Positions 602-48,301 of a stretch of 64,000 nt of DNA are shown in pieces (within the stretch, counting starts at the first letter, position 1; every line of letters begins with the position of its first letter). Source of the stretch: Membranipora membranacea (taxonomy: Eukaryota; Bryozoa; Gymnolaemata; Cheilostomatida; Membraniporidae); the NCBI GenBank assembly GCA_914767715.1, contig OU612067.1, forward strand, positions 19,349,001-19,413,000. Reading direction: 5' to 3'. The position numbers were made by a program, and so were the translations under genes. The notes below the pieces were generated by a model. It searched no databases. It was not told where the DNA came from and saw only the letters and a program-made list of their open reading frames with translations.

Positions 602-3600
602 ATGGCGGAAGTCGGAGATGGAGGTACTGCTAAAGGACGCAGGACATCAGATAAACAAATGCTGACTAAAGATGGTTTCCCTGTGACTTCTGAAAGTGAG
701 GCATGTAAGTGAATAAAAGATACTTAAAGTGAGATCACTATAAGTGTAATAATTGTGGTTACTTTTATCTGCAACATTTTGTAGATTCAAAGACTTACAA
801 GATTAGCGATCAAAAGACAGTTTTCTGAGCTTTTGAGAAATTTAAGTCGCTCTTTAGAGTTGTCTTCCCGTCTGTCTTGAAACACCATTATTTTGCCTGA
901 TTTTCGCTGACATACAAAATCTTTATCACAACTGGGAAAACATGCAATCATGGGCAAATTATATACTTACCTTGACTTGTCTTAAGTGGGGGAAGGGTAG
1001 TGCTATGAGACTGTATTTTCTGGGATATTGACAGCTACAGATCTTACTTAACCCTGGACAATTTTTGCCTATTAATTAAACACATCCTTGATGTCAGTAG
1101 GGTCAGCATGTTCCAAACAGTATGCCAGTGTATCCATGATTATGAGAGTTGTCTGTATTTGAGATTCGTATGAATTGAAGCGATCGGTTGCGCTATTTAA
1201 AGCTGCTCCTGATTGCTGTTAATATAATAAAAGCTACCCTGTAGAGTTTCAACGTTTTTTGAGACTTGAGGAATTAATTAATTTTAGCCTTTCACTTATG
1301 GTTTTTTGCAGGTTATAGAATATGGTATAAACATAGTTTGGAGCCAGAGTGCACTGACTTCCTGATTAATGACCCTCATCTAACCCAGATATCACTGTCA
1401 GATCTGACAGCTGCTATTGATGGCCTCGATATCACTCACATGATCATCAGCGGTGATATCCCACCTACTCTTGGTCAGATTGCTCCTGATCTGAAACAAC
1501 TAGGACTAGGACAAATACGACACCCAGATCAGCTACAGAGGTGAGCGTACCTTTTGTGGGATATGGTATGGTGTGTCTGTATCTGATTTGTGTGAGTGCA
1601 TTTAGTGAAGTGATAGTATGTCCAAGGAAAACTATTGCTGAGATTCTTAAATCTCCTATCATGTGAGTTGTCTTCCTATTATCAGCACTATAATGGTGTT
1701 GAGTGAAAAATTGAAATTTAATATCATGTGAAATTTATTTCAGTGCAAAACTTAGATCCCATTTTCTCGTAGGGTGTTTTGATGACCGATATCAATAACC
1801 ATGGCTATTCGTTATCACCAGCAGTAAGCCCATTAGTTTTATGTGATAGTTATTTCCTGATCACCTCACATGTAATTTTAATATATTACAGCATTTTCTC
1901 ACTGACAGCTCTAGAGGGGTTATCTGTATCAGGTAATAAAAAACTTCAAACATTACCTGATGATATAGGTATGATGAAGTTACTGAAGGTGTTAGATGTG
2001 TCAAACTGTGATTTGACTCATTTACCTACAAGGTGAGTAATGTTCTCATGATCAGGACTATAAAAGCAATATATTAGTGATGTTACATTATTTATGACAG
2101 ATAAGCCCATTAGTTATATGTGATAGTTATTTCCTGATCACCTCACATGTAATTTTAATATATTACAGTGTCTGTTCACTACCTGCTCTAGAGAAGTTAT
2201 ATGTAACAGATAATAGTAGACTTCAAACGTTACCTGATGATATAGGTATGATGAAGTCACTAAAGGTGTTAGATGTGTCAGGCTGTGATCTGACTCATTT
2301 ACCAACAAGGTGAGTAATGCTCTTATGATCAGAACCATTGAAGAAATATATTAGTGATGTTACATTATTTATGATAAATAATTTGGATAAAATGCAGGAA
2401 TCTATAATAAAACAAATTTTCATTTTATATTAGAAGAAAATATTGATGACAGAAATTCACACTGTGGCTATTATATCTATAATCTGTTACTGGTAGTTAT
2501 CTCCTTGTCTTACTTCATATTTAATATTTAATATGTATATTACAGTGTCTGTTCCTTGACAGATCTAGAGAAGTTAGATGTAATAGGTAATGAAAAACTT
2601 CAAACGTTACCTGATGATATAGGTATGATGAAGTTACTGATGGTGTTAGAAGTGTCTTACTGTGATCTGACTCATTTACCAACAAGGTGAGTAATGCTCT
2701 TATGATCAGAACTATGAAAGTGATATATTAGTGATGTTACATTATTTATGATAGATAATTTGGATAAAATGCAGGAATCTATAATAAAACAAAGTTTCAT
2801 TTTGTATTAGAAGAAAATATTGATGACAGAAATTCACACTCTGGCTATTATTTCAATAATCTGTGACTGGTAGCTTTTTCCTTGTTACACTTCACATATA
2901 ACATATTATGATGTATATTACAGTGTCTGTTCCTTGACAGCTCTAGAGAAGTTATCTGTATCAGGTAATAAAAAACTACAAACGTTACCTGATGATATAG
3001 GTATGATGAAGTCACTAAAGGAGTTATATATGTCAAACTGTGATCTGACTCATTTACCAACAAGGTTAGTAATGCTCTTATGATCAGATTTATGAAAGCG
3101 ATATATTAGTGATGTTACATTATTTATGATAGATAATTTGGATAAAATGCAGGAATCTATAATAAAACAAAGTTTCATTTTGTATTAGAAGAAAATATTG
3201 ATGACAGAAATTCACACTCTGGCTATTATTTCAATAATCTGTGACTGGTAGCTTTCTCCTTGTTACACTTCACATATAACATATTATGATGTATATTACA
3301 GTGTCTGTTCCTTGACAGCTCTAGAGAAGTTATCTGTATCAGGTAATGAAAAACTTCAAACGTTACCTGATGATATAGGTATGATGAAGTCACTAAAGGA
3401 GTTATATATGTCAAACTGTGATCTGACTCATTTACCAACAAGGTGAGTAATGTTCTTATGATCAGATTTATGAAAGTGATATATTAGTGATGTTACATTA
3501 TTTATGATAGATAATTTGGATAAAATGCAGGAATCTATAATAAAACAAAGTTTCATTTTATATTAGAAGAAAATATTGATGACAGAAATTCACACTGTGG

Positions 3601-6600
3601 CTATTATATCAATAATCTGTTACTGGTAGTTATCTCCTTGTTACACTTCATATTTAATATTTATTATGTATATTACAGCATTTGTTCACTGACAGCTCTA
3701 GAGCAGTTAAATGTATCAGATAATAGTAGACTACAAACGTTACCTGATGATATAGGTATGATGAAGTCACTAAAGGTGTTAGATGTGCGGCGCTGTGATC
3801 TGACCCATTTACCTTCAAGGTGAGTAATGCTCTTATGATCAGAACTATCGAAGTAATATATTAGTGATGTTACATAATTTATGATAGATAATTTGGATAA
3901 AATGCAGGAATCTATAATAAAACAAAGTTTCATTTTATATTAGAAGAAAATATTGATGACAGAAATTCACACTGTGGCTATTATATCTATAATCTGTTAC
4001 TGGTAGTTATCTCCTTGTTACACTTCATATTTAATATTTATTATGTATATTACAGCATTTGTTCACTGACAGCTCTAGAGAAGTTACATGTATCAGATAA
4101 TAGTAGATTACAAACGTTACCTGATGATATAGGTATGATGAAGTCACTGAAGGTGTTAGATGTGTCATACTGTGATTTGACCCATTTACCAACAAGGTGA
4201 GTAATGTTCTTATGATCAGATTTATGAAAGTGATATATTAGTGATGTTACATTATTTATGATAGATAATTTGGATAAAATGCAGGAATCTATAATAAAAC
4301 AAAGTTTCATTTTATATTAGAAGAAAATATTGATGACAGAAATTCACACTCTGGCTATTATTTCAATAATCTGTGACTGGTAGCTTTCTCCTTGTTACAC
4401 TTCACATATAACATATTATGATGTATATTACAGTGTCTGTTCACTGACAGCTCTAGAGAAGTTATCTGTATTCAGAAATAAGCGACTAAATTTGAATATC
4501 GTACATATCGATCAATATTGGATTAAATATACATATATATATATCCCTCATCACCAGCTCATTAACCACCATGCTTTTCAGCGTGGTAATTCACTCATAA
4601 AGGCTGAGCTATTTTGCCCACCACCTTTCTCATAATATCGCTCAATGTCGCATATTACATACTGTAAAATTTCAAACTGGAGCCTTGGTCACATTACGTA
4701 AATTTGCTGCTGTCAAATGAATTCATGGTTTTTGTTATATTTGCTTTCATGGTTAGGTGCGGTAATGCTTACATTCTATTCATTTACTTGCAGCATTGGA
4801 CAGCTGACCAATCTCATCAAACTTGATGTCAGATACAATGACAAGCTAACCAAGATTCCTGAGAGTCTGTACAGTGTTAGTACATTACAAAAAGTCCTGT
4901 GTGACGGCTGTCATACACTAACCTCTCCACCTCTGGCTGTCTGCAACCTCGGAGTTAAAGCTGTGAGAAAGTACTTATTTGATATCCGTGTGGAACGAGG
5001 AAGTAACCAACTGCTTATTCCGGTGACAGTAATCGGAAAGAGTAAGGCAGGTAAAACTAGCCTTGTTCAAAGTGTCCAACAGGACAAAAGAGTGCTGACA
5101 CGACGAGATTCTGAAGAAGGTCTGGTTGATGCTGCTACCAAAGTATTCAAAGTATGTGAAGCTGAAGTAGATAAGAAGGTGAAACTGATATTTACTGATT
5201 TTGGGGGACATACGATGTACCAATTTTCTTATCAGCTAACCTTTAAGACTCAGTATGTGCCACTGCTGGTAATAGACATAGCTGAGTTTGATAGGTTAGC
5301 TGATAAGAATGGAGAGGAGTCAGCTTGTGAAGAGCTATGTCTAACATGGCTAGCTCATCTGTATATCTCATCACCACGTCTCAACCGACCAGTAGTAGTC
5401 CTCACTCATCGTGACAAACTTAGTGATGAACGTTTCATCCGCCGAAAACAGCAACTCATCGAGGTCACTGAAAGGTTACGACAGCGCATCATTGAAGCTG
5501 AGAGAAGTGAATCCCCAACGCTAAGTCCTGTTTTTACTATGGCTACCTTTAGTGATACCTCGAAACCCTTCATAGGCCACATTGACATTCTTGATTTATC
5601 AGACACATCTGATCTGTCTGATATTAGTGACCTCAAGGACGCCCTCCTCATTGCTGGCTCAGAGCTGATCACAGAAATCCCAGGAATATGGTATCTAATG
5701 CTCATCAGAATCACTGAACGAGTTGACAAACCATTCATTCACCTGTCAGAGATAGATAAGGAGTTTCCTGATGACAAAGAGCATGTAGCCCTCCAATATC
5801 TCCACGAAACAGGACGTATCATGTGGTTTGGGAAAATACACAAACTTTCCAATTACATATTCCATCGTTCAGAGGTTTTGACAGGTCTCATAGAAATCCT
5901 ATACAGCCATACCCTAGATGATACCTGGAGCAAACGCCTAAAACTCTTTTCTCCTTTTAACTCCGATGGGAAGAAGATAGATAAAAGGAAATACACTGCT
6001 ATGATTGACAACTTCAACGCGACAGGAGTAATAGAGGCTTCTTTGCTCCTAAATCTGCTGGAAAAGGAATCTACAATCCCAGCTGATATCTCAGTAGAAA
6101 TCCTGAAGACATTTCACCTCATTCATCTATGTGGACCAACATCTGATTTAAGTCATGAGAAATACATCGTACCATATTTTGCGAAGGAAGAGATAAAAGC
6201 GCCTGAGGTCTTTGATAGTCTGATCCCACTGAAGGTAGATCTATGTCTACGAGGTCTACCTATTCCGAGCTACGTCTTCTCCCTCATTACAGCAACCTAC
6301 TTGGACATGAACTCAGACCCCTACAACTTCCCTGAGGTTGGTAAGAATGGTGCAACAGTGACCAACAACAGTAACAAAAGTGTCACATATCTTCTACACG
6401 ATGCCACAGAGAAGCGTGTCTCCCTGATTACTCTCACACCCCTAAGGAGAATCGGTGATGCATGGTGTGATCAGCTCGCCTCACTCGGACAGCTCATCTC
6501 AGAACTGAAATCAGTGTGGAAAGCAGTTCGCTATCAGAATGTCTTTGTTTGCTCCCATTGCTTACTCTCCAATAAACCAACTCCAACTACAGTCGTCGAT

Positions 6601-8187
6601 CCTGATTGGTATCAGCCAGAAAACCTGGATGGAGAATTCGATGTTTGCTATACAGGAAAGGAGACTTGTATCTGCAAAGCTACAGCTGCAGAAACGGAAA
6701 GTGAAACCGTTCCAACACCACTGATTTCTCCGTGTGAGTAATATCTCAAAGACAGCCAAACAGATGCTCCTCTTTCCGCTCTGCAAAAATTGTTGCAAGA
6801 AATACTTACCTATTTGTCACGAAACAACCATAACCCCTTGATGTCACTTTCTCCCTTCAATCCGTGCTTCATACCATCGTGTTTATCAGACAGTTGCTTG
6901 TGAGGCATCATTTTAATGGAGGCTTTAAATTCTTTTGTTGTTTCTGCAGGTTCTGACATATCTGAAACTGGATGTGATGTGCTAAAAGCTTACATCTCAA
7001 ACCTCCAAGTTCTGTCTCGTAAGTTGTTTTATACCAATCTTTCAATTGTAATCCGGATAATTATAAATAATTTGGTTAGTCGTATGTTACAACGACTTTA
7101 TTCTCAGAACTGTCTGAGCTGATCTCTAATTACTTTCTGAATCGATGATAATACCCACCCTTGATCAAGGTGCAAAATATTCATCTTTATTTTCTCATAG
7201 ATAAGTCGAAGATTCTGAAGGAGCTCATAGAGAAACATCCACTTGACACAAAGGACATCAAGCTGCTGTTTGATCACAGTGATCAATACATTATACCACA
7301 TCATCAAACTCATGTGAAGAGATGTGGATTAGTGCTGTTCAACTCTGACAATAGAGAGGGGGCTGTAGAAGAAGCTAATGCTATGAGTGAGAACTTTACC
7401 AAATCTGGAATCCAGACTAAGACAGTGGAGTGGAAGCAGGACTATGATCTGTTTGCTGAAATCCATGATGAGCTGACTGGGCTGATTTCTGATGGACTAT
7501 CACTGCTCATCGTCTCAATCATGTCACATGGTACAGCTGGAATTCTGACCGGAATCAACAACTCCAAAATAGCTATTTCTGATGTGCTGAAGAAGTTAAG
7601 AGTCAAGCTACCTAAACATATCCCTCTGGTAAGTTGTATCTCCACTGAATTTCCTAGAATAGTTTTCGGAGGCTGCATTTTTCTATAGATATTTGATCAT
7701 AATATTGTGTGTTTTGCAGTTATTACGGCAAACCTTATGAAATTGATAATTAAGGAGTAAATCCTTCAATCTTTTGCAGATTCTCATAGTGCAGGCTTGT
7801 CAAGCCTATTCCGATTCGGGATTTCAGAGTCATATAGATGCTGGCCCCGCAGAACCACCTAAGTCTTATGTAGTTCTGGAGAGGCCTCATACTCTGTTAC
7901 TGATGTCATCAGTTGTTGGAGGGATGGCTGTTAGAGGAGCGTTCACAGGGGCCATGGCTAGACAGTTCGCTAAGGCTAATGGGAAGACAACTATAAACGA
8001 TATGGTGACTAATGCAGTCATCGACATGAAGAAGAATGAACCAGATAAGTACAATCAGTCTCCAGAATCAAGAAACACTCTACAGAAGAGTCTGATCCTC
8101 CCACCAGGTATAGATACACCAGATTCACAGCAACACAGTGAGGGAACATCTAAGGAAAGCCTCCTGAAGAAACTCTTAGGCAAATGA
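602..8187 (+). CDS. LRR-Roc-COR-caspase-like protein, copy A
   Basis: Predicted 1387-residue cytosolic protein (no signal peptide). Exons: 602-704, 1312-1540, seven LRR exons (1892-2032, 2169-2309, 2546-2686, 2924-3064, 3302-3442, 3679-3819, 4056-4196), 4794-6733, 6950-7018, 7201-7628, 7780-8187. All joins keep frame with GT/AG borders. Domains: N-terminal LRR-like cap about 45-110; LRRs 111-439 plus more to about 490; Roc from about 515 with P-loop GKSKAGKTS (521-529), DFGGH (575-579) and THRD (644-647); COR about 740-1020; Cys-rich segment with CSHC at 1026; linker; caspase p20/p10-like domain about 1150-1330 with SHG (His1219) and QACQA (Cys1259). Roco proteins are GTPases in which COR mediates dimerisation; caspases are Asp-specific Cys proteases. 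Inferred role: LRR-gated activation of a protease, perhaps in innate immunity or cell death. No transcript evidence is available. Confidence 0.85.
1892..4196 (+). repeat. Array of seven intact LRR exon cassettes, copy A
   Basis: Seven 141-bp exons start at 1892, 2169, 2546, 2924, 3302, 3679 and 4056. Spacing is 377-378 bp except the first step (277 bp, shorter intron). Each encodes 47 residues, beginning after a split AG and ending in AG before the donor (phase 2 at both ends). Each holds two LRRs of pattern LxxLxVSxNxxLQTLPDDIG and LKVLxVSxCDLTHLPTR. The introns are also near copies of each other, so the repeat unit is exon plus intron. Donors are GTGAGT except the 2924 exon, which uses GTTAGT. 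Confidence 0.92.
4434..4488 (+). pseudogene. Truncated LRR exon remnant, copy A
   Basis: An eighth cassette begins on schedule (378 bp after the previous one) with a good acceptor. It matches the others for about 55 bases, then runs into sequence matching 44610 onward of unit B. It has no donor and its frame leaves the LRR pattern, so it is probably skipped. It looks like the left edge of a deletion that removed the rest of the cassette and the following roughly 0.5 kb still present in B. Confidence 0.8.
4794..6733 (+). other. Large exon: last LRRs, Roc GTPase and COR, copy A
   Basis: One 1940-bp exon encodes the last one to two LRRs, the Roc domain and the COR domain. The P-loop is at about 5035-5061. 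The DFGGH and THRD motifs stand in for DxxG and NKxD, as is usual in Roco proteins. Near the exon end are CSHC and further cysteines (CYTGKETCIC) that could bind zinc. The exon ends in phase 1 at a GTGAGT donor. If that intron is retained, translation stops two codons later (Cys-Glu-stop). Confidence 0.88.
7201..8187 (+). other. Caspase-like protease exons, copy A
   Basis: Exon 7201-7628 carries the p20-like part: RCGLVLFNS, then an NREG segment that may hold the usual P1-pocket Arg, then LLIVSIMSHG with the His codon at 7527-7529. Exon 7780-8187 starts with ILIVQAC, the Cys codon being at 7798-7800. It then has a p10-like stretch (LLMSSVVGGMAVRGAFTG) in which VRG sits where caspases have SWR. 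The catalytic Cys follows the intron directly. The tail of about 60 residues has no recognised domain. The family is most likely peptidase C14A; substrate specificity is unknown. Confidence 0.82.
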
Positions 8188-9580
8188 GTTTTCAAGTTAT
8201 TTCTGGTCAATTCAAGTGACCTTTCACAGACTTTCCATGTGGAAGTATTCTATAAACCATCATTCAGGTCAAGATATACAATCATCTCGTAAGATTGATC
8301 AGTTCCACAAATCAACCTGATCATTCTCGCTGTGTTCAGATGTTACGTCTGTAGCGTATCAGCATAGTGACTGGTGAAGTCATTTTCTGTAAATTCATTG
8401 CATGTTTGACTCAGGCAAGACTGAGTTATATTTAAATGCGGCTGATCACATTTAACACTTTCAGATATTGGTAGATCATTAATTCTGAATCCATGTTTGA
8501 AGATGATTTGGATAGCTAGAATTATTTTTTGTTGACATTTACTTTTGTACTTTTGTATAACTTGAGACTTGAACATAAGTTTACATCTGGTAATCGCGCC
8601 TGCAACTTAATGGTTCTGTTCCATGCCACTGCTGACCGAGAGTTTTTTTATTTCTTTACCAATATATTCTTCATTTACAAGTTTATGCTGTATTTTAATT
8701 TAGAGAGGGATGATTTCTTGTGACGAGCCTTCAGTGTTGGTTGTATTTGAATTTATAGCTGTTTATTAATTAGTTTGTGATTCACTGGTATAGCGTGTCC
8801 TTGGAATTTCCTACATTAAAAAATTATATTTAACAATGCCACTAAATTGTCGGGTCTTGTGACATCCAATACTAGCTTTAGTTTCTGTGGATTGTTAGTC
8901 AATGTTATCAGGTACTGCCTAAATCTTATCAAGGAGGTAAAGACAGTCTTTAACTCCTTGATATTATCATGTAAATTTCACCAGTAAAGTGAGAGGTGAA
9001 GAGGCATAGGTTCCCTGAAGGAAACTATTGGGCTGATCACGTTTTAACTTGTAGGTCACCCTACGGTGTAACAGCAAGAAATGCTGTCCAGTGGTTCAGA
9101 GAGAGTTGCGATATCAATGGGATGCTGCTCTGCGAACATTTCAATGCTCACAGAGATCAGACTTAACTACATGAGCCCTCACACTAGAGTAGCATATCAC
9201 TTCAGTTGACATTTAGAAACTAGTTCAACATTAGAATACTTGGTATTAATTTACAATCGCAGCTTGACTTAATATCATATCACTCAATCAATCAAAAGTG
9301 GCAGAAAAACAGACAATTTTCAAAGAAAACTTCTAACCATAGTAGTAATATTTCATCATCTGATAAAACAATATGCAGGGGTAGATAACTTGTAAACGAG
9401 ATCAATTTGGATAAAATTAATATGGTATAAATGTCACATAATATAGAATTGTCAAAACATTCACATCCAGTTCACACAGACACTCCATCAGAACAAATCA
9501 TATATGAAACTAGTTTTAGTGCTCAGACTACATTAGAAAACACATTTGTATATTAAATAGAATTATGAATTATTATTTCA
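8188..9580. other. Convergent intergenic region, unit A
   Basis: This lies between the stop of the plus-strand Roco-caspase gene and the stop of minus-strand CEP295. No further coding potential is seen. An ATTAAA at 8815-8820 could be the polyadenylation signal of the plus-strand gene. The region is strongly conserved in unit B (48302-49689). Confidence 0.6.
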
Positions 9581-34208: not shown

Positions 34209-34623
34209 CAGGGGCGTATATTCTAAAAATTTTCACTCACTGACTTTTTAGAGATGAGCATAATGATCGGGCGCAGCCCGATCCACACGCCGTAGGCGTG
34301 GCGGGGAGGGTGTGGGAGGGGCGCTTAAGCGCCCTCCCAGCACGGAAATTTTTGCATATTGGTAGCAAAATAGTGCAAGCAGAGAGGTATTTCAATAGCT
34401 CACTGAGCTGTTGGGTACTTTCAGAAAACAACTCTATAGCAGTAGAAGATTACGGTAAAAATGCTCCAGTTATAAAGCACCCATTTGAAAAAAAACTGGC
34501 CTTGATGGGATTCGAACCCACAACAATCTGATTAACAGTGATTATAAAGCAGACGCTCTACACACTGAGCTATTCAGCCACTCACGGAAATCCGTGGGCC
34601 ATGAGTGCTAATATACGCCACTG
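34209..34623. mobile_element. Non-autonomous hAT-type element
   Basis: A 415-bp element that starts CAGGGGCGTATATT and ends AATATACGCCACTG, giving 14-bp inverted ends with one mismatch and the CAG/CTG termini typical of hAT elements. It is flanked by a perfect 8-bp direct repeat CTCCTAGC at 34201-34208 and 34624-34631, the target-site size of hAT. Inside are GC-rich palindromes at about 34267-34341 and a tRNA-like segment. No transposase is encoded. Confidence 0.85.
34498..34579 (-). tRNA. tRNA-like segment inside the hAT-type element (probably pseudo)
   Basis: On the minus strand an A-box-like TAGCTCAGTGTGTAGAGC and a B-box GGGTTCGAATCCC sit at tRNA spacing. The D and T stems form. The acceptor stem pairs at only about four of seven positions. 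The anticodon loop is enlarged by about 12 bases, so the anticodon cannot be assigned. It may be an old tRNA-derived promoter or a tRNA pseudogene carried by the element. Confidence 0.55.
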
Positions 34624-35023: not shown

Positions 35024-36320
35024 TTATTCCAAACAGGGAAACAAATTCAAGTTTCTTTTTTGAAAATGTGATAATCGATCAACCACCAAATACTTCTTAA
35101 CACTCAAGCTTTCGTTCAGCGCATTGAACAAGTCCTGAGCGGTGCTGAGATTGCAGGTGGGCATGTCGATGAACCTGGTCACCACCTTACCAGCCACACA
35201 GAGTCGAGCTAGAATAACAAGCTGTTTGTCAACACCCCGGTCTGTCGTCTCATCACACATCAAACCAAAGAACGAGGTGCGGCAGAGCTCACTCACGCTC
35301 TTGTTGAACTCCGGAGCGAAACCCTCTATAAATAAATGAAGGGCGAAGGTTTAGAAAGTGTACTATAGCCTACAAGTTTCTCTTACAGACTGCTTTGATC
35401 ATGGAATCCTGGTGTTTGGAAATCAAAGCAGTCCGTAGGAGAGCAGAATCATAGTCCAAAAATTATTAAGTGACATTTCCGTAGGCTAAATCAATCAACC
35501 TACCTCGTATCATCGCCATAGTTTTTGTGCGGCGGCATCCGTACCGCTTTGCAATCTCCGAGTCTGGAAACATCAGCGGCGCCAGATCCGAGAAGTGGTC
35601 GGCCAGACTGAAGCTGCAGTTGTGCTGGGCAATCATCATCGAGAATAACTCCTCAGCATTAGTAACCTGTAGAATGTGGAAGAGGCGTGAGCGTGATTGA
35701 CAGAGAGACTCACCATGTCACCAACCACCCACCCATCATCCACTGACGTTTGACAAATTTCATAACATAACAAAGGTCTAATATGACAAGATAATATATT
35801 CCACACCACAAATGTGTTGTGATTAGTGTGAACTGAACAGCCATATTCTTCATCATCGTTGTTATTATCATGCTAGAGATTGAGGCTGAGTAGCTGTCTG
35901 TGTGGATGCGCAGGCTATCTGAGTGGCCCCCATCCATGATCCAAGCCAAGCCAAAGCAGGGGTGTTGTTGGTTGGTTTTGGCTTGATGATCATCATGGAT
36001 AAGATTGTGGGCCACTGCCACTCACTCACTCCAGTCATTCAAACTCACCTTTGTTTGTATATCTGACTTAGAAGGAAAGAAATCAGATATTGATTTGCTG
36101 CTGAGAAGCATCCTCTCTGTCTCTATGTAGCCCTTACTTTTGGCATACTGGGTGAGATCATTTGCACCCCCATGAGTAATTTTCACATCACATTTACAGA
36201 TGAGATGGTGCACAGAGCATGAGTGGAGCCGCATTTGGATGGCTTCACAAACGAAAACTTGGATTCCCAGGCTTTGCTATATTTGCATAAATATTTGGGT
36301 TTCTTGCTAGAAGAGGCCAT
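35024..36320 (-). pseudogene. Broken BED-finger / hAT-transposase-like gene (ZNF862-type relic)
   Basis: Three exon-like blocks, 36049-36320, 35514-35666 and 35024-35325, join in order. The first starts MASSSKKPKYLCKYSKAWES and is BED-finger-like, but its frame is broken near 36190 by what looks like a 5-base insertion before CKCDVKITHGGAND resumes. The second encodes SLADHFSDLAPLMFPDSEIA. The third encodes FFGLMCDETTDRG and TRFIDMPTCNLSTAQDLFNA, typical of ZNF862/DUF4371-type hAT-derived proteins. It then ends early, lacking the rest of the catalytic region and the dimerisation domain. Its GC content is higher than its surroundings. It is an inactive transposon fragment. Confidence 0.7.
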
Positions 36321-38480: not shown

Positions 38481-41400
38481 ATGGCGGAAGTCGGAGATGG
38501 AGGTACTGCCAAAGGACGCAGGACATCAGATAAACAAATGCTGACTAAAGATGGTTTCCCTGTGACTTCTGAAAGTGAGGCATGTAAGTGGATAAAAGAT
38601 ACTTAAAGTGAGATCACTATAAGTGTAATAATTGTGGTTACTTTTATCTGCAACATTTTGTAGATTTAAAGACTTACAAGATTAGCGATCAAAAGACAGT
38701 TTTCTGAGCTTCTGAGAAATTTAAGCCGTTCTTTAGAGTTGTCTTCCCGTCTGTCTTGAAACACCATTATTTTGCCTGATTCTCGCTGACATACAAAATC
38801 TTTATCACAACTGGGAAAACATGCAATTATGGGCAAATTATATACTTACCTTGACTTGTCTTAAGTGGGGGAAGGGTAGTGCTATGAGACTGTATTTTCT
38901 GGGATATTGACAGCTACAGACAATTTTTGCCTATTAATTAAACACATCCTTGATGTCAGTAGGGTCAGCATGTTCCAAACAGTATGCCAGTGTATCCATG
39001 ATTATGAGAGTTGTCTGTATTTGAGATTCGTATGAATTGAAGTGATCGGTTGCGCTATTTAAAGCTGCTCCTGATTGCTGTTAATATAATAAAAGCTACC
39101 CTGTAGAGTTTTAAGGTTTTTTGAGACTTGAGGAATTAATTAATTTTAGCCTTTCACTTATGTTTTTTTGCAGGTTATAGAATATGGTATAAACATAGTT
39201 TGGAGCCAGAGTGCACTGACTTCCTGAATAGTGACCCTCATCTAACCCAGATATCACTGTCAGATCTGGCAGCTGCTACTGATGGCCTCGATATCACTCA
39301 CATGATCATCAGCGGTGATATCCCACCTACTCTGGGTCAGATAGCTCCTGATCTGAAACAACTCAGACTAATACCAATACATCACCAAGATCTGCTACAG
39401 AGGTGAGCGTACCTTTTGTGGGATATGGCATGGTGTGTCTGTATCTGATTTGTGTGAGTGCATTCAGTGAAGTGATAGTATGTCCAAGGAAAACTATTGT
39501 TGAGATTCTTAAATCTCCTTTCATGTGAGTTTTCTTCCTATTATCAGCACTATAATGTTGTTGAGTGAAAAATTGAAATTTAATATCATGTGAAATTTAT
39601 TTCAGTGCAAAACTTAAATCCCATTTTCTCGTAGGGTATTTTGATGACTAATATCAATAACCATGGCTATTCGTTATCACCAGCAGTAAGCCCATTAGTT
39701 ATATGTGATAGTTATTTCTTGATCGTCTCACATGTAATTTTAATATATTACAGCATTTGTTTACTACCAGCTCGAGATTGGTTTCATGTATCATATAATA
39801 GTAGACCTCAAACGTTGCCTGATGATATAGGCATGTTGAAGTCACTAAAGGTGTTATCCGTGTGGGACCGTTATCTGACTCGTTTACCTACAAGGTGGGC
39901 AATGTCCTTATGATCAGAATTATGAAAGCAATATATTAGTGATGTTACATTATTTATGATAGATAATTTGGATAAAATGCAGGAATCTATAATAAAGCAA
40001 AGTTTCATTTTATATTAGAAGAAAATATTGATGAGAGAAATTCACACTGCCTATTATATCTATAATCTGTTACTGGTAGTTATCTTCTTGTTACACTTCA
40101 TATTTAATATTTATTATGTATATTACAGTGTCTGTTCACTGCCAGCTCTAGAGGAGTTATATGTATCAGATAATGAAAAACTTCAAACGTTACCTGATGA
40201 TATAGGTATGATGAAGTCACTTAAGGCGTTATCTGTGTCAAACTGTGATCTGACTCATTTACCAACAAGGTGAGTAATGTTCTTATGATCAGAACCACTG
40301 AAGCAATATAATAGTGATGTTACATTATTAATGATAGATAATTTGGAAAAAATGCAGGAATCTATAATAAAAACAAAGTTTCATTTTATATTAGAAGAAA
40401 ATATTGATGACAGAAATTCACACTCTGGCTATTATATCTATAATCTGTTACTGGTAGTTATCTCCTTGTATTACTTCACATATAACATATTATGATGTAT
40501 ATTACAGTGTCTGTTCACTGACAGCTCTAGAGAAGTTACATGTATCAGGTAATAGGAGACTACAAACGTTACCTGATGATATAGGCCTGATGAAGTCACT
40601 GAAGGTGTTAAAAGTGTCTTACTGTGATCTGACTCATTTACCTACAAGGTGAGTAATGTCCTTATGATCAGAACTATCGAAGTAATATATTAGTGATGTT
40701 ACATAATTTATGACAGATAATTTGGATAAAAAGCAGGAATCTATAATAAAACAAAGTTTCATTTTATATTAGAAGAAAATATTGATGACAGAAATTCACA
40801 CTCTGGCTATTATATCTATAATCTGTTACTGGTAGTTATCTCCTTGAATTACTTCACATATAACATATTATGATGTATATTACAGTGTCTGTTCACTGAC
40901 ATCTCTAGAGAAGTTACATGTATCAGGTAATAGGAGACTACAAACGTTACCTGATGATATAGGCCTGATGAAGTCACTGAAGGTGTTAAAAGTGTCTTAC
41001 TGTGATCTGACTCATTTACCTACAAGGTGAGTAATGTCCTTATGATCAGAACTATCGAAGTAATATATTAGTGATGTTACATAATTTATGACAGATAATT
41101 TGGATAAAAAGCAGGAATCTATAATAAAACAAAGTTTCATTTTATATTAGAAGAAAATATTGATGACAGAAATTCACACTGTGGCTATTATATCAATAAT
41201 CTGTTACTGGTAGTTATCTCCTTGTTACACTTCATATTTAATATTTATTTTGTATATTACAGCATTTGTTCACTGACAGCTCTAGAGGAGTTAGATGTAA
41301 TAGGTAATAAAAAACTTCAAACGTTACCTGATGATATAGGTATGATGAAGTTACTGAAGGTGTTATATATTTCAAACTGTGATCTGACTCATTTACCAAC

Positions 41401-44400
41401 AAGGTGAGTAATGCTCTTATGATCAGAACCATTGAAGAAATATATTAGTGATGTTACATTATTTATGATAGATAATTTGGATAAAATGCAGGAATCTATA
41501 ATAAAACAAAGTTTCATTTTGTATTAGAAGAAAATATTGATGACAGAAATTCACACTCTGGCTATTATTTCAATAATCTGTGACTGGTAGCTTTCTCCTT
41601 GTTACACTTCACATATAACATATTATGATGTATATTACAGTGTCTGTTCACTGACAGCTTTAGAGAAGTTATCTGTAACAGATAATAGTAGACTTCAAAC
41701 GTTACCTGATGATATAGGCATGATGAAGTCACTGAAGGTGTTAGAAGTGTCAAACTGTGATCTGACTCATTTACCTACAAGGTTAGTAATGTTCTTATGA
41801 TCAGAACTATGAAAGTGATATATTAGTGATGTTACATTATTTATGATAGATACTTTGGATAAAATGCAGGAATCTAAAATAAAACAAAGTTTCATTTTAT
41901 ATTGGGAGAAAATATTGATGACAGAAATTCACACTCTGGCTATTATTTCAATAATCTGTGACTGGTAGCTTTCTCCTTGTTACACTTCACATATAACATA
42001 TTATGATGTATATTACAGTGTCTGTTCACTGACAGCTCTAGAGGAGTTACCTGTATTCGGTAATAGTAGATTACAAACGTTACCTGATGATATAGGTATG
42101 GTGAAGTCACTGAAGGAGTTAGGAGTGTGGCACTGTGATCTGACTCATTTACCTACGAGGTTAGTAATTTTCTTATGATCAGATTTATGAAAGTGATATA
42201 TTAGTGATGTTACATTATTTATGATAGATAATTTGGATAAAATGCAGGACTCTATAATAAAACAAAGTTTCATTTTATATGAGAAGAAAATATTGATGAC
42301 AGAAATTCACACTCTGGCTCTTATTTCAATATATCTGTGACTGGTAGTTATCTCCTTGTATTACTTAACATATAACGTATTATGATGTATATTACAGTGT
42401 CTGTTCACTACCAGCTCTAGAGCAGTTAAATGTATCAGATAATAGTAGACTACAAACGTTACCTGATGATATAGGTATGATGAAGTCACTAAAGGTGTTA
42501 GGTGTGTGGGGCTGTGATCTGACTCATTTACCAACAAGGTGAGTAATGTTCTTATGATCAGAACCATTGAAGCAATATATTAGTGATGTTACATAATTTA
42601 TGATAGATAATTTGGATAAAATGCAGGAATCTATAATAAAATAAAGTTTCATTTTATATTAGAAGAAAATATTGATGACAGAAATTCACACTCTGGCTAT
42701 TATATCAATAATCTGTGACTGGTAGCTTTCTCCTTGTTACACTTCACATATAACATATTATGATGTATATTACAGTGTCTGTTCCTTGACAGCTCTAGAG
42801 AAGTTAGATGTAATAGGTAATACGAAACTACAAACGTTACCTGATGATTTAGGTATGATGAAGTCACTAAAGGTGTTACATGTGTCAGGCTGTTATCTGA
42901 CTCATTTACCAACAAGGTGAGTAATGTTCTTATGATCAGAACCATTGAAGAAATATATTAGTGATGTTACATTATTTATGATGGATAATTTGGATAAAAT
43001 GCAGGAATCTATAATAAAACAAATTTTCATTTTATATTAGAAGAAAATATTGATGTCAGAAATTCACACTGTGGCTATTATATCAATAATCTGTTACTCG
43101 TAGTTATCTCCTTGTTACACTTCATATTTAATATTTATTATGTATATTATAGTATTTGTACACTGACAGCTCTAGAGGAATTATATGTATTCGGTAATAG
43201 GAGACTACAAATTTTACCTGATGATATAGGTATGATGAAGTCACTGAAGGTGTTAGAAGTGTCAGGCTGTGATCTGACTCATTTACCTACAAGGTGAGTA
43301 ATGTTCTTATGATCAGCACCATTGAAGCAATATATTAGGGATGTTACATAATTTATGATAGATAATTTGGATAAAATGCAGGCATCTATAATAAAACAAA
43401 GTTTCATTTTATTTTGGGAGAAAATATTGATGACAGAAATTCACACTCTGGCTATTATATCAATAATCTGTGACTGGTAGCTTTCTCCTTGTTACACTTC
43501 ACATATAACATATTATGATGTATATTACAGTGTCTGTTCACTGACAGCTTTAGAGAAGTTATCTGTATCAATTAATAGTAGACTTCAAACGTTACCTGAT
43601 GATATAGGTATGATGAAGTCACTAAAGGAGTTATATATGTCGAACTGTGATCTGACTCATTTACCAACAAGGTGAGTAATGTTCTTATGATCAGATTTAT
43701 GAAAGTGATATATTAGTGATGTTACATTATTTATGATAGATAATTTGGATAAAATGCAGGAATCTATAATAAAACAAAGTTTCATTTTATATTAGAAGAA
43801 AATATTGATGACAGAAATTCACGCTGTTGCTATTATATCAATAATCTGTTACTGGTAGTTATCTCCTTGTTACACTTCATATTTGATATTTATTATGTAC
43901 ACTTCACATTTAATATTAATTATTATGATATATATTATATTACAGTGTCTGCTCACTGCCAGCTCTAGAGAAGTTACATGTATCAGGTAATAGTAGACTT
44001 CAAATGTTACCTGATGATATAGGTATGAGGAAGTCTCTAAAGGAATTAAAAGTGCACTACTGTGATCTGACTCATTTACCTTCAAGGTGAGTAATGTTCT
44101 TATGATCAGATATATGAAGTAATATATAGTCAGGAAATTCACCCTCTCAGGATAGCCAGCATGGGTGTAGCTTACTTTATTCTGATTGCCAATATTGGAT
44201 GCGTAAAGTCTTATGGCACTCCAAGACGAAAAGTCAATTTAAATCAAGACTACCACCAAAAAAGACATAAAAAAATTAATTTCATTTACTACAATTTGAT
44301 TTTGTACCAATAAACTCAACACTTACAGATAAACAAAGATACAATTTGATGAATAAGTAAAAGTAATAAGTACATATTATTAGTCTGGTTCGCCAGCAAA

Positions 44401-47400
44401 CATGAAGAGATAAGTTGTAAGAGCGATGATTTTAGGTTATTAAAACAGGTTCAGTCTGATCATTTAAATGATACATTAAAGAATTGTTATAACAGTTAGA
44501 ACATAGTGAAGGAATTGAATATAATATATATTTATTATAAATGTATGTGGAAATGGTAACTGTTTGATTGTAATGTCCTGCATTGAGATATGAAATGGGA
44601 ATATGTGAGCAAATTTGAATATCCACCAATATCAACCAATAAATATATATCCCTCATCACCAGCTCATTAACCACCATGCTTTTCAGCGTAGTAATTCAC
44701 TCATAACGGCTGAGCTATTTTGCCCACCACCTTTCTCATAATATCGCTCAATGTCGCATATTACATACTGTAAAATTTAAAGTGGAGCCTTGGTCACATT
44801 ACGTAAATTTCCTGCTGTCAAATGAATTTATGGTTTTTGTTATATTTGCTTTCATGGTTAGGTGCAGTAATGCTTACATTCTATTCTTTTACTTGCAGCA
44901 TTGGACAGCTGACCAATCTCATCAAACTTGATGTCAGATACAATGACAAGCTAACCAGGATTCCTGAGAGTTTGTACAGTGTTAGTACATTACAAGAAGT
45001 CCTGTGTGACGGCTGTCATACACTAACCTCTCCACCTCTGGCTGTCTGCAACCTCGGAGTTAAAGCTGTGAGAAAGTACTTATTTGATATCCGTGTGGAA
45101 CGAGGAAGTAACCAACTGCTTATTCCGGTCACAGTAATCGGAAAGAGTAAGGCAGGTAAAACTAGCCTTGTTCAAAGTGTCCAACAGGACAAAAGAGTGC
45201 TGACACGACGAGATTCTGAAGAAGGTCTGGTTGATGCTGCCACCAAAGTATTCAAAGTATGTGAAGCTGATGTAGATAAGACAACGAAACTGATATTTAC
45301 TGACTTTGGGGGACACACAATGTACCACTTTTCTTATCAGCTAACCTTCAAGACTCAGTGTGTGCCACTGCTGGTAATAGACATAGCTGAGTTTGACAGG
45401 TTAGCTGATAAGAATGGAGAGGAGTCAGCTTGTGAAGAGCTATGTCTAACATGGCTAGCTCATCTGTATATCTCATCACCAGGTCTCAACCGACCAGTAG
45501 TAGTCCTCACTCATCGTGACAAACTTAGTGATGAATGTTTCACCCGCCGAAAACAGCAACTCATTGAGGTCACTGAAAGGTTACGACAGCACATCATTGA
45601 AGCTGAGAGAAGTGTATCCCCAACACTAAGCCCTGTTTTTACTATGACTACCTTTAGTGATACCTCGGAACCCTTCATAAGACACATTGACATTCTTGAT
45701 TTATCAGACACATCTGATCTGTCTGACATTAGTGACTTGAAGGACGCCCTCCTCATTGCTGGCTCAGAGCTGATCACAGAGATCCCAGGAATATGGTATC
45801 TAATGCTTATCAGAATCACTGAACGAGTTGACCAACCATTCATTCACCTGTCAGAAATAGATAAAGAGTTTCCTGATGACAAAGAGCATGTGACCCTTCA
45901 ATATCTCCACGAAACAGGATGTATCATGTGGTTTGGGAAAATAGACAAACTTTCAAACTACATATTCCATCATTCAGAGGTTTTGACAGGTCTCATAGAA
46001 ATCCTATACAGTCATACCCTAGATGATACCTGGAGCAAACGCCTGAACCTCTTTTCTCCTTTCACCTCTGATGGGAAGAAGATAGATAAAAGGAAATACA
46101 CTGCTATGATTGACAACTTCAACGCGACAGGAGTAATAGAGGCTTCTTTGCTCCTAAATCTGCTGGAAAAGGAATCTACAATCCCAGCTGATATCTCAGT
46201 AGAAATCCTGAAGACATTTCACCTCATTCATCTATGTGGACCAACATCTGATTTAAGTCATGAGAAATACATCGTACCATATTTTGCGAAGGAAGAGATA
46301 AAAGCGCCTGAGGTCTTTGATAGTCTGATCCCACTGAAGGTAGATCTATGGCTACGAGGTCTCCCTATTCCGGGCTACGTCTTCTCCCTCATTACAGCAG
46401 CCTACTTGGACATAAACTCAGACCCCTACAACTTCCCTGAGGTTGGTAAGAACGGTGTAACAGTGACCAACCACAGGAACAAAAGTGTCAAATATCTTCT
46501 ACATGATGCTACAGAAAAGCGTCTCTCCCTGATTACTCTCGCACCCCTGAGGAGAATCGGTGATGCATGGTGTGATCATCTCGCCTCACTCCGACAGCTC
46601 ATCTCAGAACTGCGTTCAGTTTGGAAAGCAGTTCGCTATCAGAATGTCTTCGTTTGCTCCCATTGCTTACTCTCAAATAAGCCAAGTCCAACTACTGCTG
46701 TCGATCCTGATTGGTTTCAGCCAGAAAACCTGGATGGAGATCTAGATGTTTGCTATACGGGAAAGGAGACTCGTGTATGCAAAGCTACAGCTGCCATCAC
46801 GGAAAGTGAAACCGTTCCAACACCACTGATTTCTCCGTGTGAGTAATATCTCAAAGACAGCCAAACAGCTGCTCCTCTTTCCGCTCTGCAAAAACTGTTG
46901 CTAGAAATACGAACCTAATTGTCAATAAACAACCATAAGCCCATGATGTGATCAAATGTCACTTTCTCTCTGCAACCCCGCTTCATTCCATTGTGTTTAT
47001 CAGACAGTTGATTGTTAGGCATCATTTCAATGGAGGCTTTAGATTATTTTGTTTTATCTGCAGGTTCTGACATATCTGAAACTGGATATGATGTGCTAAA
47101 CGCTTACATCTCAAACCTCCGAGTTCTGTCTAGTAAGTTGTTTTACACCAATCTTTCAAGTGTAATCCGGATAATTGTAAATAATTTGGTTTGTCATATG
47201 TTACGACGACTTTGTTCTCAGAACTGTCTGTGCTGATCTTCAATTACTATCTGAATCGATGAAAATACCCATCATTGATCGAGGTGTATAATATTCATCT
47301 TTATTTTCTCATAGATAAGTCAAAGATTCTGAAGGAGCTCATAGAGAAACATCCACTCGACACAAAGGACATCAAGCTGCTGTTTGACCACAGTGATCAG

Positions 47401-48301
47401 TATATAATACCACATCAGGAAACTCATGTGAAGAGATGTGGATTAGTTCTGTTCAACTCTGACAACAGAGAGGGGGCCGCAAAAGAAGCTAATGCTATGA
47501 GTGAGAGCCTCACCAAATCTGGAATTCAGACTAAGACAGTGGAATGGAAGCGGGACTATGATCTGTTTGCTGAAATCCATGATGAGCTGACTGGGCTGAT
47601 TTCTGATGGACTATCACTGCTCATCGTCTCAATCATGTCACATGGTACAGCTGGAATTCTGACCGGAATCAACGACTCCAAAATAGCTATTTCTGATGTG
47701 CTGAAGACGTTAAGAGTCAAGCTACCTAAACATATCCCTCTGGTAAGTTGTATCCCCACTGAATTTCCTAGACCAGTTTTCGGAGGCTGCATTTTTCTAT
47801 AGATATTTGATCATAATATTGTGTGTTTTGCAGTTATTACGGCAAACCTTATGAAATTGATAATTAAGGAGTAAATCCTTCAATCTTTTGCAGATTCTCA
47901 TAGTGCAGGCTTGTCAAGCCTATTCCGATTCGGGATCTCAGAGTCATATAGACGCTGGCCGCGCAGAACCACCTAAGTCTTATGTAGTTCTGGAGAGGCC
48001 TCATACTCTGTTACTGATGTCATCAGTTGTTGGAGGGATGGCTGTAAGAGGAGCGTTCACAGGGGCCATGGCTAGACAGTTCGCTAAGGCTAATGGGAAG
48101 ATAACTATAAACAATATGGTGACTAATGCAGTCATCGACATGAAGAAGAATGAACCAGATGAGTACAATCAGTCCCCAGAATCAAGGAACACTCTACAGA
48201 AGAGTCTGATCCTCCCACCAGGTATAGATACACCAGATTCACAGCAACAGAGTGAGGGAACATCTAAGGAAAGCCTCCTGGAGAAACTCTTAGGCAAATG
48301 A
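38481..48301 (+). CDS. LRR-Roc-COR-caspase-like protein, copy B
   Basis: Predicted 1622 residues. Exons: 38481-38583, 39174-39402, twelve LRR exons (39754-39894, 40129-40269, 40508-40648, 40886-41026, 41263-41403, 41641-41781, 42019-42159, 42398-42538, 42776-42916, 43153-43293, 43531-43671, 43946-44086), 44899-46838, 47064-47132, 47315-47742, 47894-48301. Same domain order as copy A with 235 extra LRR residues. P-loop GKSKAGKTS is at about 756-764, SHG with His1454, QACQA with Cys1494. All frames are open and all junctions conserved, so it looks functional. Scattered amino-acid changes from A occur throughout, including the Cys-rich tail of COR (A TCIC, B TRVC). Confidence 0.85.
39754..44086 (+). 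repeat. Array of twelve LRR exon cassettes, copy B
   Basis: Cassette starts are spaced 375, 379, 378, 377, 378, 378, 379, 378, 377, 378 and 415 bp apart. Every exon is 141 bp and phase 2 at both ends. The first (39754) has lost several LRR leucines and uses the weak donor GTGGGC. Exons 41641 and 42019 use GTTAGT; exon 43153 uses a TATAG acceptor. Cassettes 40508 and 40886 are almost identical (one exon difference), marking a very recent duplication. Confidence 0.93.
44118..44610. other. Unit-B-specific stretch before the Roc exon
   Basis: AT-rich intron sequence between the last LRR exon and the Roc exon, absent from unit A. Similarity to A resumes at the AAATTTGAATATC stretch near 44610. 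A probably lost this region in the deletion that also cut its last LRR cassette. No coding potential is seen. Confidence 0.6.
44899..46838 (+). other. Large exon: last LRRs, Roc GTPase and COR, copy B
   Basis: Same length (1940 bp), borders and phases as the copy A exon. P-loop, DFGGH and THRD motifs are intact. The open frame of the exon continues upstream into the intron to an ATG at 44822, as in copy A. Confidence 0.88.
47315..48301 (+). other. Caspase-like protease exons, copy B
   Basis: Exons 47315-47742 and 47894-48301. The SHG and QACQA motifs, the VRG of the p10-like part and the position of the intron directly before ILIVQAC are all as in copy A. Both copies therefore keep a potentially catalytic dyad. 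Confidence 0.82.

Follow-up and report, generated by a model that had tools for sequence, protein, structure and literature searches.

Roco proteins form dimers, and in the LRRK and DAPK members the effector is a kinase. Animal caspases are coupled to their sensors by adaptors of the CARD, DED or death type, and initiator caspases are activated by induced proximity. A direct connection between a Roco-type switch and a caspase has been described in prokaryotes, where LRR-AP-GTPase-COR proteins (LRR, leucine-rich repeat) carry at least 24 C-terminal domains including a caspase (Kaur et al., 2021; PMC8195603). Among animals, the actiniarian gene NG1 has the order LRR-Roc/Ras-COR-TIR (PMC5094078), Aplysia has TIR proteins with ROCO domains (PMC9334734), and the legend of a figure on sponge NLR architectures abbreviates both CASc and COR, which the available text of that paper does not join in one protein (PMC12909245). 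In the literature searched (mostly open-access, without bioRxiv preprints, and for the most part judged from its listing), no paper was recognized as reporting an animal LRR-Roc-COR-caspase protein. Here we analyzed a window of 64,000 nucleotides of the 339-Mb Membranipora membranacea genome (C3:19349001-19413000; positions below are in window numbering unless a contig is named), in which a gene on the forward strand at 602-8187, hereafter copy 1, is predicted to encode LRRs, a Roc GTPase, a COR domain and a caspase in one chain. The preliminary description of this DNA had presented such a chain as unusual, a view that gives way to the precedent of the prokaryotic LRR-AP-GTPase-COR-caspase proteins (compare also the actiniarian LRR-Roc-COR-TIR); the Roco-caspase fusion is already reported in bacteria, and the window gene adds a variant with introns.

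The prokaryotic proteins, which were compared by description only, resemble the window gene in domain order (with COR below the cut-off in the window protein), in fast-evolving N-terminal LRRs, in the caspase effector and in having several paralogues per genome. They are bacterial and in principle intron-free, whereas introns, an animal-type caspase, cassette LRR exons and tandem arrays mark the window gene. With NG1 and the Aplysia TIR-ROCO proteins the window gene shares an invertebrate Roc-COR directly joined to an immune effector, which is TIR in those proteins and a caspase here. The LRRK and DAPK Roco proteins likewise have Roc-COR, and LRRK also has LRRs, but a kinase stands where the window gene has its caspase. 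Animal caspases (caspase-2, -8 and -1) are alike in p20 fold, catalytic His and Cys, S1 Arg, p10 Arg and linker Asp; they differ in that the window gene places sensor and caspase in one chain and reads QACQ instead of QACR/G. NLR inflammasomes and plant NLRs also combine an LRR sensor with a nucleotide switch in a diversified tandem family, whereas the window gene has a GTPase Roc instead of a STAND ATPase and has no adaptor domain, and its protein would at most work like an NLR inflammasome receptor without being a member of that group.

The 13 exons of copy 1 are bounded by GT-AG sites and fit together in phase, giving 1387 codons without a stop and a protein in the order LRRs, Roc, COR and caspase. 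In the splice model, the exon with the start ATG (602..704) is followed by a second exon that precedes the LRR array (1312..1540) and by seven 141-bp LRR cassette exons (1892..4196, starting at 1892, 2169, 2546, 2924, 3302, 3679 and 4056), for which Pfam LRR matches and codon selection give additional evidence. The last LRRs, Roc and COR are encoded by one long exon (4794..6733), assigned from the splice model, Pfam and the P-loop, G3 and G4 residues. A linker exon (6950..7018), placed by the splice model and by splice sites in paralogues, leads from COR to the caspase p20 exon (7201..7628), which carries the S1 Arg and the catalytic His in an SHG motif and is based on Pfam, alignment and a fold model. 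The final exon (7780..8187) contains the catalytic Cys in QAC, the inter-subunit linker with its conserved Asp, p10 and the stop. The boundaries on which the proposed fusion depended (6733/6950/7018/7201/7628/7780) proved to be GT-AG sites without exception.

A second copy, not mentioned in the preliminary description, lies in the same window at 38481-48301. It has the exons and frame of copy 1, with 12 LRR exons against 7 and a product of 1622 residues, and it belongs to a self-repeat of the window at about 38.4 kb whose longest piece is 95.8% identical over 15.3 kb. Its forward-strand exons comprise exon 1 (38481..38583), exon 2 (39174..39402), the 12 LRR cassette exons of 141 bp (39754..44086), a long exon for the final LRRs together with Roc and COR (44899..46838), the linker exon (47064..47132), the caspase p20 exon (47315..47742) and the exon with the caspase Cys, linker and p10 (47894..48301). 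Over the 947 residues that begin with the last LRRs and run to the C-terminus, 63 differ between the two copies. The synonymous divergence (dS) between them is 0.096, and the ratio of nonsynonymous to synonymous divergence (dN/dS), taken from this one pair of copies, is 0.33 for the tail, 0.23 for the COR-caspase linker and 0.40 for the caspase. The fused tail therefore looks constrained as protein, with purifying selection that would include the COR-caspase junction. Because a second copy is intact, the tail dN/dS is 0.33 and the splice sites are kept across paralogues, the chain goes beyond what chance would produce. The LRR-Roc-COR-caspase architecture proposed earlier is thus confirmed as an exon chain at the level of sequence: it is in frame across 13 exons, and it recurs in a large family with GTPase and protease residues intact.

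The size of that family was estimated from the Roc and p10 modules, for which the genome-wide lists are lower bounds. At least 150 genomic matches to the p10 exon were obtained (all 150 scored of 252 candidates), 11 of them in a tandem array at C3 18.92-19.40 Mb (0.48 Mb) with a spacing of 39-56 kb, together with at least 67 open frames of 370 residues or longer that match Roc. The downstream sides of 26 of these 67 long frames were examined (20 of C3's 22 frames plus single frames from C2, C5, C7, C8, C9 and C10). Fifteen of the 26 Roc-COR loci are followed by p20 and p10 exons of the window's own, first class, in the same order and on the same strand, with 51-98% identity. Ten more have a second caspase class downstream, recognizable by [ST]HG and QAC[SA]G and in every case above the Pfam C14 cut-off. 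The second-class loci (L021, L022, L024, L025, L027, L029-L034) also have an RG[RK][AV]LI motif, and 10 of the 11 pass Pfam C14; at the remaining locus of the 26, L031, only a first p20 exon was found within the 6 kb taken. Order, strand and a like-placed COR exon end suggest that the second-class exons are joined to Roc-COR as well. Across the whole set, a class-I p10 lies within 8 kb downstream of at least 18 of the 67 frames when 63 of the 150 p10 rows are used, and the frames left without such a pair are no evidence of absence.

The first-class splice sites are kept at 16 of 17 p20 acceptors, 17 of 17 p20 donors and 17 of 17 p10 acceptors, both window copies included, and the linker exon was recognized by pattern in 10 of the 17 rows. 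For 24 of the 28 rows, which come from both classes, the COR donor is where projection puts it. One further locus, L041 (G000:C3:14305500-14310700; 2375-4900), has LRR, Roc, COR-A and p20 in a single intron-free frame of 842 codons, in which Roc-COR residue 516 is followed directly by p20 residue 58; the p20 part was seen by tblastn (3e-25) and not by Pfam. L041 is without the COR end and without the first p20 part that bears the S1 Arg, and therefore may be an altered or decaying member. It still shows, in its reading frame, the modules joined without an intron.

Within the 1387-residue product, Pfam matched several LRR families and Roc (PF08477, residues 517-608, E = 4.6e-6, 27.3 bits against a cut-off of 27). 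The Roc P-loop Lys, the G3 Asp and Gly and the G4 Asp are kept in all 28 rows, from both caspase classes. COR-A was found at E ≤ 0.01 in 8 of the 13 family members scanned (best 4.9e-6), and COR-B appeared at the expected place in copy 2 at 0.15, below the cut-off. LRRK2 chains in the PDB were also matched, with E values of 0.04-0.07. Thus the proposed domain calls stood for Roc and for Peptidase_C14, both above their cut-offs, while COR fell below its cut-off in the window protein itself. Across the 1387 residues, Pfam matched no death-fold, NACHT or NB-ARC domain at E ≤ 1. NCBIfam matched bacterial effectors through LRR likeness and gave one GTPase match below cut-off, and PADLOC returned nothing. 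In phmmer the COR segment was also paired with designed PPR proteins, hits that were dismissed as repeat artefacts.

The C-terminal domain, for which lack of a C14 match had been named as grounds for rejection, was matched by Peptidase_C14 (PF00656) over residues 1159-1357 and profile positions 17-232 of 233, with E = 3.9e-10 and 40.2 bits against a cut-off of 21.4. Taken exon by exon, Pfam matched p10 in 9 of 9 alignment rows and p20 in 5 of 7 (E ≤ 0.01). A model of the p20 exon built from the seven rows had a predicted local distance difference test score (pLDDT) of 74.5, and caspases made up 49 of the 50 Foldseek rows shown for it, with ranks 1-43 unbroken and caspase-2 at the top (E = 8.3e-5, TMq 0.61). 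The p20 exon is accordingly modeled as taking the caspase fold. All 17 first-class rows share the S1 Arg, the catalytic His, the Gln and Cys of QAC, an Asp in the linker between p20 and p10, and the Arg of p10. No stop interrupts the aligned catalytic and GTPase stretches of these 17 rows or of the 28 Roc rows; many of the rows are close copies, so they do not count as independent. The S1 Arg lines up with its counterpart in ancestral caspase-3/6/7, and a weak alignment to caspase-8 does the same for the p10 Arg; by its residues, an Arg-Gln-Arg S1 pocket suited to a P1 Asp is present. In addition, the Asp-Ala of the linker is invariant in 9 of 9 rows (the two window copies and seven metagenomic relatives) even as linker length is very variable, and an invariant Asp in this position would suit an auto-cleavage site.

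At the sensor end of the protein, the LRR exons of both copies are 141 bp each, recur with a period of 377-378 bp and are phase-symmetric; units could therefore be gained or lost without a break of frame. LRR face positions are set by the LxxLxVxxN rule. Codon comparisons covered 18 units, seven of copy 1 and 11 of copy 2 (whose divergent first unit was dropped). The ten concave-face codons gave a dS of 0.173, a dN of 0.396 and a ratio of 2.28, against a dN/dS of 0.29 for the other 36 codons. Among 20,000 random sets of ten codons, 5 reached the dN of the face and 572 reached its ratio, and leaving out one unit at a time gave ratios of 2.14-2.72. Since the units depend on one another and have probably undergone gene conversion, these values describe a strong pattern of apparent diversification on the concave face and do not constitute a formal test. 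Five stretches of DNA preceding other Roc exons were inspected as well, and four of them contain LRR motifs. Copy 1 also has a shortened eighth LRR exon (4434-4490), with an acceptor and without an LRR-type donor, which was read as a decayed cassette.

Outside the assembly, a two-row profile of the C-terminal domain retrieved 13 exon-length relatives. Three of these, the metagenome proteins P0001, P0002 and P0009, are 100%, 99.4% and 99.4% identical to L015, L014 and L019, respectively, and by these identities public metagenomes hold DNA of the same or a very near species. The other ten reach at most about 67% identity to any locus then fetched. Scanning a genome contig collection with the p10 alignment gave no confirmed relative and no bacterial member, and a scan of a viral contig collection gave no confirmed relative. 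As a separate observation, first-class caspase p20 and p10 exons (both found by tblastn; C14 5.5e-5 for p20) follow an ankyrin-repeat frame (Ank_2 9.5e-13) on the reverse strand at L042 (G000:C9:9533900-9537900), with no Roc-COR match within 4 kb. The caspase module seems to be placed on other sensors too.

We estimate at roughly two in three the probability that each gene gives one intracellular, adaptor-free receptor-protease belonging to a lineage-expanded family. Exon chain, domain order, active-site residues, family recurrence, purifying selection on the tail and diversification of the LRR face are seen in the sequence, and from them we infer a single transcript and a way of working in which ligand class, GTP control, auto-cleavage and outcome are conjectural. 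The LRR array would bind a ligand, probably microbial or otherwise non-self, and binding would shift the nucleotide and dimer state of Roc-COR, which may act as a nucleotide-controlled dimerization switch. Dimerization would then bring two caspase zymogens of animal type together for activation by proximity, the caspase would cleave itself after the conserved p20/p10 Asp, and the active enzyme would cut other proteins after Asp. The outcome would most likely be cell death or inflammatory processing without a death-fold adaptor. For the wider proposal we regard the odds as even: that an animal lineage has adaptor-free LRR-Roc-COR-caspase receptors on the scale of plant resistance genes, formed by cassette turnover with positive selection, by tandem arrays and by shuffling of the caspase module onto other sensors such as ankyrin repeats.

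Several results weigh against the receptor-protease. COR-A reaches 0.065 in the whole 1387-residue protein and 0.0026 in the isolated COR segment, where it is the sole family listed, and both values are below the curated cut-off; a model of the Roc-COR exon from a two-row alignment was uninformative (pLDDT 30.5). The window's p20 exon by itself has no Pfam match at E ≤ 0.01. By sequence, caspase-8 was matched weakly (E = 0.018), a two-row profile placed it at E = 0.45 under an asparaginase, and the p10 profile found no chain in the PDB. One of the five upstream stretches, that of L037, has no LRR motif. Searches for long homologous proteins gave none among 1669 candidates for the caspase region (E ≤ 0.001) and none among 7990 scored for the Roc-COR region (E ≤ 0.01), probably because gene callers split such genes at introns and the search wanted proteins of about 763-2427 residues.

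The alternative that survives best, and which we nevertheless consider unlikely, is that the locus makes two products, an LRR-Roc-COR protein ending just inside the intron that begins at 6734 and a caspase translated from about ATG 6916, the fusion being a minor isoform or not made at all. The 6733 donor is followed at once by an in-frame stop, and the in-frame ATG at 6916 recurs in copy 2 and in the near paralogues L009-L015; these features would allow separate products. An AATAAA at 46924 within the COR-linker intron of copy 2 fits the same reading, but copy 1 has neither AATAAA nor ATTAAA at 6700-8815. The retention of the COR donor and of the p20 acceptor among paralogues, the low dN/dS of the linker and the uninterrupted frame of L041, with COR-A and p20 together, all argue for a joined product.

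A second alternative, which we rate as slightly less probable again, accepts the fusion and makes its caspase part a pseudoenzyme, a scaffold or a decoy. The canonical caspase motif continues after QAC with R-G (QACRG), whereas the window caspase has Q-A at these positions (QACQA); the solved caspases were matched weakly, and the altered member L041 has lost the part with the S1 Arg. Against an inactive protein stand the His, the Cys and the three S1-pocket residues, unchanged in the 17 rows, the linker Asp that is invariant despite the variable length around it, and the QAC[SA]G of the second class. That the copies are unmerged haplotypes of one ordinary gene, as the near identity of the two window copies might suggest, is very improbable and was rejected because of the 11-copy array on one contig, with the dS between the window copies, their 7 and 12 LRR exons, paralogues farther along the contig whose Roc-COR is 49-69% identical and the metagenome protein identical to L015 pointing the same way.

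Elsewhere in the window, several open frames of coiled-coil appearance lie on the reverse strand at 9.6-18.3 kb and in the repeat after 48.3 kb, and the four such frames and one short frame that were scanned gave no Pfam match at E ≤ 0.1. Long, degenerate tandem repeats rich in CA occur in both repeat copies, at 12.9-13.6 kb and at 53.0-53.8 kb. Also on the reverse strand, a fragment at 35027-35350 is weakly like DUF4371 (0.013, below cut-off), and a tRNA-like element at 34497-34579 is matched by Rfam RF00005 with 38.5 bits, where ARAGORN reports none.

If the receptor-protease is real, these genes would give animals an equivalent of plant NLRs and bacterial Roco conflict proteins, combining recognition, nucleotide switching and proteolysis in one molecule that passes from detection to cutting without a go-between. 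They would make two questions approachable in a single polypeptide: how Roc-COR dimerization gates an effector, which LRRK2 poses as well, and whether a receptor-coupled caspase requires a death-fold adaptor at all. For the family itself, the cassette LRR exons would represent a germline path to receptor diversity beyond NLRs and VLRs.

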